The notes beneath the pieces were generated by a model that saw only the letters and a program-made list of their open reading frames with translations, searched no databases and had not been told where the DNA came from. A stretch of DNA of 34,662 nucleotides from Dongia mobilis (GTDB lineage Bacteria; Pseudomonadota; Alphaproteobacteria; Dongiales; Dongiaceae), in the NCBI RefSeq assembly GCF_945906275.1, contig NZ_CAMDRA010000019.1, positions 1 to 34,662 of the forward strand, written 5' to 3'. Made by a program: the position numbers and the translations under genes. The first letter of the stretch is position 1. Each line of letters begins with the position of its first letter. Positions 1-2,962 of the stretch are shown in pieces.

Positions 1-35
1 TGGCGAACCCGTCCATATAACTCCACGCCCTTCAT
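1..35 (-). CDS. istA: IS21-family transposase IstA, N-terminal fragment (runs off window)
   Basis: Only the first 11 codons are present, reading MKGVELYGRVR. This strongly resembles the usual start of alphaproteobacterial IS21 transposases, a short stretch of the type MKxVELYxxVR that precedes a helix-turn-helix. A purine-rich AAGGCGGAGGG stretch lies directly upstream of the ATG and can serve as ribosome binding site. The family product is a DDE-type transposase that acts with the ATPase IstB. The identification rests on few residues plus the IS21-like terminus at 146, so it is probable rather than certain. Confidence 0.65.
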   Translation of the reverse strand, partial: MKGVELYGRVR

Positions 36-77
36 CCCTCCGCCTTCCGCCAATCAGGCAAAAGGCTATCTGCTGCC

Positions 78-141
78 GGACTTTTACTCCGGCGCAACCA
101 GATTATCCGGCCGCTTCAGTGAGGGATTATTGCTCCGGCGC
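78..141. repeat. Subterminal direct repeats of the IS21-type end
   Basis: Copies at 124-141 and 78-95 share the core CTCCGGCGC on the plus strand and differ at three positions. In the inner copy, GCCGGA (75-80) and TCCGGC (88-93) also form a small dyad. Repeats of this kind in IS21-family ends are thought to be transposase binding sites. Confidence 0.6.
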
Positions 142-1344
142 TTACAGATAGGCCAGGAGCGGGCCGGGATGCATGCCGAGATCCAGGAACATCCGGGCCA
201 CGGGCACTTCCACCAATGTCGGAAAATACATGAACACGCCGAAGACCACGGCCGTGGCATTGGCCAGCAGATCGTTGCGGCCGGCCAAAGCCTCGATCCA
301 TTCTGGCTGGATCAACTGGCGGATGACGCCGACCGCAAACACGCCGATGACCAGCAGCAGGAAAATCTGTTTCACGAATCGCCACGATTCCCACAGCCAG
401 GCCTGCCAGTCCGCCGGATCAAGGCGCCTTGCATAGTGACCGATGGCGAGGAGCGCCAGGCCGACCGCGATCACACGGCCGGTGACGGCGATCTCCAGCC
501 TGCCGTCGAGCGCGGCGAAGCGCAGGGCCGCCACCAGCAGGGTGGTGGCGGCTAGGCCCAGGGTGACCCAGGTCCAGCGGTTGGCGCCCTCGACAATATT
601 CTCCATGCCCTTATAGGCCGTGGCGCCGATCAGGATCAGCAGCGCGATGAGCAGCGAGCCCTGCACGCTCACACCCTCCTCACCCTTGGCGGCGTCGAAC
701 GGCACCCACTGGAACAGCATCGCCTGCCACGCCTCGACCCAGGGCAGCTTCAGGCTGACGATTGTCAGGGTTTCGGTCAGCGGCCACAGCCTGAGCGTGC
801 CAGCGATCAGCAGGGCGACCAGCGACAGGAGGACACCGATGGCGGCCCGGTTGATGCTGGCCTTGTCGGCAAACAGGGCATCGGTCTGTGCATCGTGGCT
901 GGCATCGTCGCGCCGGAACAGCAGGGCCATCAGCATCCCGATGCCGATGCCGAACAGAAGGCACAGCAAAACGCGCGCGACGGCAAACTCCACCCCGAGG
1001 ATGCTGCCGGTATAGGCCAGCGCCATGACGTTTCCCGCCGGCGCGAAGAACAGGAAGGTCATGGCCGGCCCGATGCCGGCGCCCTTGCGGTAGATGCCGG
1101 CGAACAGCGGCACGATGGTGCATGAGCAGACCGCCAGCAGCGAGCCGGCGACAGCCGCCGCCGGATAGGACACATGACGTGGCGTGGTGCGTCCGAGCCA
1201 GCGCGTGATGCTGGCCTTCGGGATGAGGGCCGCCATGGCACCGGCGATGAAAAACGCCGGCAGCAGGCAAAGCAGCACATGGGCCGCGAGGTAGGCGGCA
1301 AGGTTGCCGACGCCACCGTTCAATAATTGCAGGACAAGGCTCAT
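142..1344 (-). pseudogene. ArsP_1/DUF318-family permease, 3' end cut off by IS21 insertion
   Basis: This is a polytopic inner-membrane permease of the ArsP_1 (DUF318) family, whose members include organoarsenical exporters and permeases of unknown substrate. The family core is clear at about residues 73-105: CSCTIVPLFAGIYRKG followed by a GP..TFLFFAPAGN segment. A second core lies near the C-terminus, with VFMYFPTLVEVP and a GMHPGPLLAYL stretch. Relatives continue after this point for roughly 40 residues, with a serine-proline-rich turn and a last helix. Here the frame stops at once, because the TAA at 142-144 belongs to the IS end that begins at 146. I read it as a truncated gene giving a 400-residue product without its last transmembrane segment. 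It lies 70 bases downstream of guaA on the same strand. Whether the shortened protein works is unknown. Confidence 0.75.
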
Positions 1345-1414
1345 GGCCAGACTCTACCACAAGCGATCCGGCAGCCGAGCCGGATTCGACCCAACGGAGC
1401 CAGCGCTTATTGTC

Positions 1415-2962
1415 TCACTCCCATTCGATGGTTCCGGGCGGCTTCGACGTGTAGTCATAGACCACACGGTTGATGCCTTTGACCTCGTTGACGATGCGGG
1501 TGGCGACACGGCCCAGGAACGCCGGTTCGAACGGGTAGAAATCCGCCGTCATGCCGTCGGTCGAGGTCACCGCGCGCAGTGCGCAGACGAAATCATAGGT
1601 CCGCCCGTCGCCCATGACACCCACCGTGCGTACGGGGAGGAGCACCGCGAAGGCCTGCCAGATCTTCTCGTAAAGCCCGGCCTTGTCGATCTCCTCGAGA
1701 TAGATCGTGTCGGCCTTCCGGAGGATGTCGCATTTCTCTTTTGAAACCGCGCCCGGGATTCGGATGGCAAGGCCGGGGCCGGGGAAGGGATGGCGGCGGA
1801 TTATCTTCTCCGGCAGGCCCAGCTCGCGGCCGAGCAGCCGCACCTCGTCCTTGAACAATTCGCGCAAGGGCTCGACCAGCTTCATGCGCATGCGTTCCGG
1901 CAGGCCGCCGACATTGTGATGGCTCTTGATGGTGACCGACGGCCCGCCGGTGAAGGAGACACTTTCGATGACGTCCGGATAAAGCGTCCCCTGCGCCAGG
2001 AAATCGGCGCCGCCGATTTTCTTGGCTTCCTCCTCGAACACCTCGATGAACAGGCGCCCGATGGTCTTGCGCTTGGTCTCGGGGTCCGAGACGCCGTCAA
2101 GTTGCCCCAGGAACATGTCTGAGGCATCGCGGTGCACCAGCGGAATGTTGTAGCTGTCGCGGAAGAGGGCTACCACCTGGTCCGCCTCGCCCGCGCGGAG
2201 CAGGCCATGATCGACGAAGATGCAGGTGAGCTGGTCGCCGATCGCCTGGTGGATGAGCACCGCCGCCACCGCTGAATCGACACCGCCCGAGAGGCCGCAG
2301 ATCACCTTGCCCTTGCCCACCTGGGCGCGGATCTTGGCGATCTCCTGGTCGCGGAAGGCGGCCATGGTCCAGTCGCTCTTGCAGCCGCAGATCTTGTGGA
2401 CGAAGTTGGAGAGCAGCTTCGCCCCGTCCGGCGTATGCGCCACCTCCGGGTGGAACTGCACGGCGTAGCGCTTGTCCTTCACATTGGCGATCGCGGCGAA
2501 GGGGGCCCCTTCCGAGACCGCCACCACTTCGAAGCCGGCGGGGATGGCGGCGACACGGTCGCCATGGCTCATCCACACCTGGTACGAGCCGCCCTTCACC
2601 CAGACGCCCTCGAACAGCGGTACTTCCTTTTGCACATGAAGTTCCGAGCGGCCGAATTCCCGATGGTCCGAGCCCTCCACCTTACCACCCAACTGCGCGC
2701 ACATGGTCTGCTCGCCATAGCAGATGCCCAGCACCGGCAGCTTCGATTCCCAGACATAGTCCGGCGCCCGCGGCCCATCATCCGTCGTCACCGAATGCGG
2801 CGAGCCGGAGAGGATGAAACCCTTGGGATCAAACGCCTTGATACGGGCGGCATCCGCGCTGAACGGAAAGATCTCGCAATAAACCCCGGCCTCGCGCAGA
2901 CGCCGCGCAATCAACTGCGTCACCTGCGAGCCGAAATCGAGAATAAGAATTCGGTCGGTCAT
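1415..2962 (-). CDS. guaA: GMP synthase (glutamine-hydrolysing)
   Basis: Converts XMP, ATP and glutamine to GMP in cytosolic purine synthesis. At 515 residues it has the usual family length. The N-terminal class I amidotransferase domain (about 1-195) shows the nucleophile Cys81 in GICYGEQTM and the partners His171 and Glu173 in FHPEV. The ATP-pyrophosphatase domain follows, with the P-loop CGLSGGVDS near residue 224. The C-terminal dimerisation domain ends in the family signature PPGTIEWE. The ATG at 2962 is preceded by a strong AAGGAG at 2968-2973 with five bases between, which fixes the start. It is probably transcribed alone or with the permease downstream. Confidence 0.98.

Follow-up and report, generated by a model that had tools for sequence, protein, structure and literature searches.

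Why does the reading frame of an ArsP-family permease gene in Dongia mobilis stop short of the length of its relatives, close to the end of a contig, and what lies beyond its stop codon? We hold with high confidence that an apparently foreign permease gene 3' of guaA has been broken at codon 400 by a multi-copy IS21-type element. This is an ordinary and recent disruption of a gene by an insertion sequence (IS), the mechanism of which is textbook.

Gene order at the contig end

The window, i.e., the whole 34,662-nucleotide stretch of DNA that was analysed, opens contig C19 of genome G000 (3.72 Mb in 271 contigs), and the contig stops inside the IS end, at window position 1. On the minus strand the order is guaA (2962-1415), a 70 bp gap, the ArsP-family permease gene (1344-142), and the IS end (146-1). 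The gene at 1415..2962 is taken to be guaA from its sequence. The features are as follows.

1..146, minus strand: IS21-type left end, within which the contig begins; 26 genome copies including the window's
1..35, minus strand: istA-like transposase start (MKGVELYGRVR...), read from the sequence and cut by the contig end
82..95, minus strand: inner terminal repeat GCGCCGGAGTAAAA, from the repeat search
128..141, minus strand: outer terminal repeat GCGCCGGAGCAATA, from the repeat search
142..1344, minus strand: arsP-like permease, C-terminally truncated (400 codons; PF03773)
147..152, minus strand: expected 6-bp target duplication CCTATC, its length deduced from the flanks of four other left/right pairs
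1415..2962, minus strand: guaA-like GMP synthase, 515 aa, matched at E<=1e-60 in 17 of 20 other genomes

A scan of window positions 1-1600 for promoters and terminators returned no promoter-like site and one terminator-like site, and shuffled sequences give as many.

The permease frame ends inside an insertion sequence

The permease frame is open for 400 codons without a frameshift and ends ...MHPGPLLAYL-TAA. Its match to PF03773 (ArsP_1) is strong (E 5.7e-53, 180.4 bits vs. a gathering score of 32.3) and covers profile positions 6-251 of 294, so that positions 252-294 (43 positions) are missing; the full-length relative L038 spans positions 5-293. The CSC motif, invariant in a 15-sequence alignment, is retained. 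The TG of codon 400 (the last Leu) and the entire TAA are IS sequence, and the permease side contributes only the C at position 147. The preliminary description of this DNA had proposed precisely such a truncation of an ArsP-family permease by an IS21-type element, and the sequence beyond the stop, which might have turned out to be something other than an IS, is indeed a multi-copy IS end. Between the window permease and L038, dN/dS is ~0.15 over the 400 codons, which indicates purifying selection on the gene's lineage, as an average over the whole divergence that dates nothing.

IS21 elements have termini that start with TGT and end with ACA, carry several internal terminal repeats, and duplicate 4-8 bp of their target. 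The left end described here starts TGTAAGCGCCGGAG at window position 146 on the minus strand and holds two GCGCCGGAG(T/C)AA repeats (82-95 and 128-141), and an IstA-like start runs from 35 to 1 on the minus strand, just as had been noticed at the outset. Since at least two such repeat matches also arise in 8 of 100 shuffled sequences, it is the multi-copy end, and not the repeats, that is strong evidence for an IS.

A search that tolerated no more than two mismatches over 26 bases located 26 copies of the left end in the genome, the window's included, and the flanks outside it differ among the copies. For the 25 other matches, the alignment reaches its limit at query base 146 in 18, at 147 in five and at 149 in two. 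Sixteen of these 25 equal the window's left end over all 146 bases, those on contigs C55, C96 and C218 show no difference from it in the 38-117 bases present, those on C97, C105, C144 and C216 differ by one base each, and that on C80 differs by four; the C6 match has diverged. This last, at C6:42695-42751 (L119 ~1196-1252), is 89% identical over 57 bp, lies away from a contig end, and is possibly an older solo end or part of another element. The longest left end, on contig C144 (L118), has an IstA-like frame that stays open for 58 codons (L118:2-175, minus strand); this 58-aa N-terminus, a short fragment, matches NF033546 at E 1.8e-5, below the cut-off.

Elsewhere, the IS end was not found in any of the six congeners searched, and 54 further genomes gave only two matches, each of 22-23 bp. 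A 286-base left end searched against 72,556 plasmid records matched 10, at 68-75% identity over 44-91%. One IS21-type element has apparently undergone a recent burst in this genome. The insertion into the permease gene looks recent because 16 of the 25 other left ends are identical over 146 bases, and on this point the preliminary description holds up; the loss of function that it coupled to the event is something we infer.

Right ends and the target duplication

The right end of the element reads ...CTCCGGCGTACC...CTCCGGCGTTGACA. Contig C11 opens with an IstB-like C-terminus, followed by the TTGACA end; the 40-aa C-terminus, again a short fragment, matches PF01695 at E 5.1e-5, below the cut-off. 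The TTGACA right end has 15 occurrences in the genome in a search that required the last 20 IS bases to be in the contig, which shorter right ends would escape.

When the flanks of the 26 left ends were paired with those of the 15 right ends, four exact 6-bp matches were obtained (left/right: C80/C195, C165/C17, C213/C33 and C97/C141), whereas 394 shifted controls averaged 0.12 such matches and never gave more than 2. Matches at 4, 5 and 7 bp numbered 1, 1 and 0, i.e., the control level, and the 4- and 5-bp flank matches C28/C178 and C256/C45 were therefore not counted. The four 6-bp pairs, set against this control, show that both ends belong to one element, which duplicates 6 bp of its target. 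We would like to note that the left and right ends are joined here by pairing statistics, no contig with the whole element having been seen. A literature search on IS21 duplications returned no match.

No 6-bp partner was found for 22 of the 26 left ends and 11 of the 15 right ends; either the assembly lacks many of the partners, or there has been recombination among some of the copies. In the former case, by simple capture-recapture arithmetic (26 x 15 / 4), the genome may contain nearly a hundred copies of the IS.

The lost C-terminus

The species-genome scan for the permease retained the best 80 of 425 relatives, and 79 of these 80 were compared at the truncation point, L112 being excluded as its match ends at residue 355. 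The nearest homologues, L038 and L085, are 85% identical to the window permease over 400 aa and come from records titled Nitrosovibrio and Rhodoferax. In the best 80 of the 425, most record titles carry betaproteobacterial names; Pseudomonas is among the remainder, with a small number of other genera.

None of the 79 homologues ends naturally at LLAYL, an observation that bears out the truncation. Beyond GPLLAYL, the segment DPELSLQS is present in all 79 homologues (among the best 80 of 425) that reach this point, in 72 of them in the form MADPELSLQS, and in the 15-sequence alignment the columns D403-S410 have at least 90% identity, with the window's own gap counted. The extension past the truncation amounts to at least 70 residues (the span examined) in 74 of the 79; four end 49-53 residues past it, and one is cut by its own contig end after 35 residues. 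Seven homologues were read as complete sequences, with lengths of 482 aa in six and 481 aa in one, i.e., 81-82 residues past the truncation, and so ~82 residues are missing from the window permease.

In the structure predicted for L038, helices in the lost part lie at 408-418, 420-445 and 450-479 (two long, one short); the prediction is mediocre (mean pLDDT 65.3) and served for a rough helix count alone. The loss had been put beforehand at roughly 40 residues with one final helix. That figure suits the four of 79 homologues that end at 49-53 residues and the 43 positions lacking from the Pfam match, but it is too small for the near relatives, where 81-82 residues in seven of seven and three predicted helices would be gone. 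A search of PDB sequences gave no relative at E<=1, and a PDB fold search gave nothing at E<=0.001. L038 residues 78-140 and 380-442 align without gaps and in register, as a possible internal repeat that would put the IS inside the second repeat unit; with an hhalign probability of 0.8% and P 0.073, this repeat lacks significance and was rejected.

A gene for a small CxxC protein starts just behind the permease gene in all seven homologues read whole, and of the 77 loci with at least 250 nt beyond the permease stop, 75 have a CxxC motif of this kind in the first 400 nt. In L056, this gene encodes 78 aa and matches TIGR00412 (MTH895/ArsE family thioredoxin-like).

The guaA site and the origin of the permease

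No match to the permease was found in six congeners, and its matches in 11 of 60 relatives are all at most 33% identical. In blastn comparisons of the window with five congeners, the alignment ends in all five at window position 1414, one base past the guaA stop codon; guaA was not found in the sixth congener. Three congeners have common DNA behind guaA, the distance to its start being ~1.6 kb for G005, 6.6 kb for G001 and 12.0 kb for G006; closer to guaA, two shorter pieces are also common to G001 and G006. In G003, a piece in common with G001 and G005 does not start until 13.3 kb, and G004 has nothing in common with the other congeners across 14.2 kb. The zone directly behind guaA is thus, judged by these alignments, variable in the genus. 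When congener DNA from behind guaA was searched in the genome studied here, only the guaA end matched.

The permease gene was most likely gained laterally at this variable site, given the missing match in the congeners, the alignment break at the guaA stop and the variable zone behind guaA. As the guaA C-terminal motif was not found in any of the 80 homologue loci (the best 80 of 425), the guaA-arsP neighbourhood is seen in this strain alone. The guaA 3' end is not repeated, in the manner of an att site, anywhere in the window, and in the 205 loci examined the guaA 3'-end pattern occurs in 24, once per locus. PMC7775301 describes the guaA 3' end as a site of genomic islands.

The far side of the insertion and alternative explanations

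The remainder of the permease gene may lie, or may have lain, beyond the IS. The expectation that it would be met past the element found no confirmation: none of the 15 right-end flanks starts with CCTATC, and the permease C-terminus (82 aa of a relative) was not found in the contigs of this genome, whereas the same query was found in six of six other genomes, all known carriers, which served as positive control. The duplication of 4-8 bases that was to be looked for is accordingly seen as 6 bp at four other copies, but a partner for the window's copy was not found. For the thioredoxin-like neighbour, this genome gave a chance-level match alone (E 0.456), and a search of viral contigs for the permease C-terminus yielded no relative.

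Absences of this kind would also be expected had the remainder and its thioredoxin-like neighbour been deleted or moved, e.g., by recombination between IS copies, an explanation that we consider possible if rather doubtful. It could draw on the many near-identical IS copies, and the 22 of 26 left ends unpaired at 6 bp are what rearrangement between copies would give as well. Nevertheless, the last contig in the assembly's numbering measures 3,013 bp, with C270 at 3,076 and C260 at 3,300, which suggests that contigs under ~3 kb were left out of the assembly; if so, a technical cause would suffice for the absence of a short piece flanked by two IS copies. That left IS ends outnumber right ones (26 vs. 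15) likewise shows the assembly to lack far sides anyway. A broader version of the same idea, in which the recent spread of an IS21-type element is taking apart a metal(loid)-resistance island at a guaA hotspot, the permease having been cut and the rest of the island lost or dispersed as IS copies recombined, strikes us as a little more doubtful again.

It is quite unlikely that the 400 residues still function as a permease, for which the IS merely provides a stop codon. What is left of the frame contains neither a further stop nor a frameshift and keeps the CSC motif, but a recent insertion leaves no time for decay, and the intact frame is therefore weak evidence for such a permease; the strong conservation of the lost segment, with DPELSLQS in every homologue compared, speaks against it. 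Least probable, to the point that we give it hardly any weight, is an assembly artefact in which the permease was misjoined to an IS end. The contig does end within a repeat, where misjoins are common, yet the junction, 146 bases from the contig end, coincides with an IS terminus that recurs at 25 further places, and the permease side matches its homologues to the last base before the IS.

Proposed course of events and comparison with known systems

Under the preferred reading, i.e., disruption of a foreign permease gene by the IS, an ArsP-family permease gene, the nearest relatives of which are mostly betaproteobacterial by record titles and have an ArsE-type thioredoxin-like gene behind them, would have come to lie directly 3' of guaA, at a variable site. 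The multi-copy IS21-type element would then have inserted into codon 400 of ~482, with gain of the permease probably preceding the insertion. The reading frame now runs two bases into the IS and stops at the TAA at its very end, giving a product from which the conserved DPELSLQS and the helices that follow it are missing, and transport by the truncated permease would probably be lost. The locus illustrates cleanly how an expanding IS can break an efflux-type gene that was apparently gained horizontally, and it cautions against annotating the strain as having this permease.

Among known permeases, the window gene matches the ArsP_1/PF03773 family well above the cut-off, but truncated. The NCBIfam models for SO_0444 Cu/Zn efflux and SaoE are weak neighbours, and the window permease falls under both equivalog cut-offs (74.9 of 300 bits and 56.6 of 325 bits), as does the full-length L038 (90.4 and 67.9 bits). 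ICERspD18B, described in PMC7775301, is a guaA-associated island that brings arsenic resistance; the name 'arsP' does not occur in the main text of that paper. The window resembles it in having congener-absent DNA right at the guaA 3' end. Islands of this type sit at the guaA 3' end between direct repeats and carry an integrase; on the side covered by the window no integrase was seen, and the guaA 3' end occurs there only once. The element itself agrees with the IS21 family (istA/istB), from which no substantive difference was seen: it likewise has TGT...ACA ends and repeated terminal motifs, an IstA-like start near the left end and an IstB-like end near the right end (both as fragments), and a short direct target duplication, here of 6 bp at four other copies.
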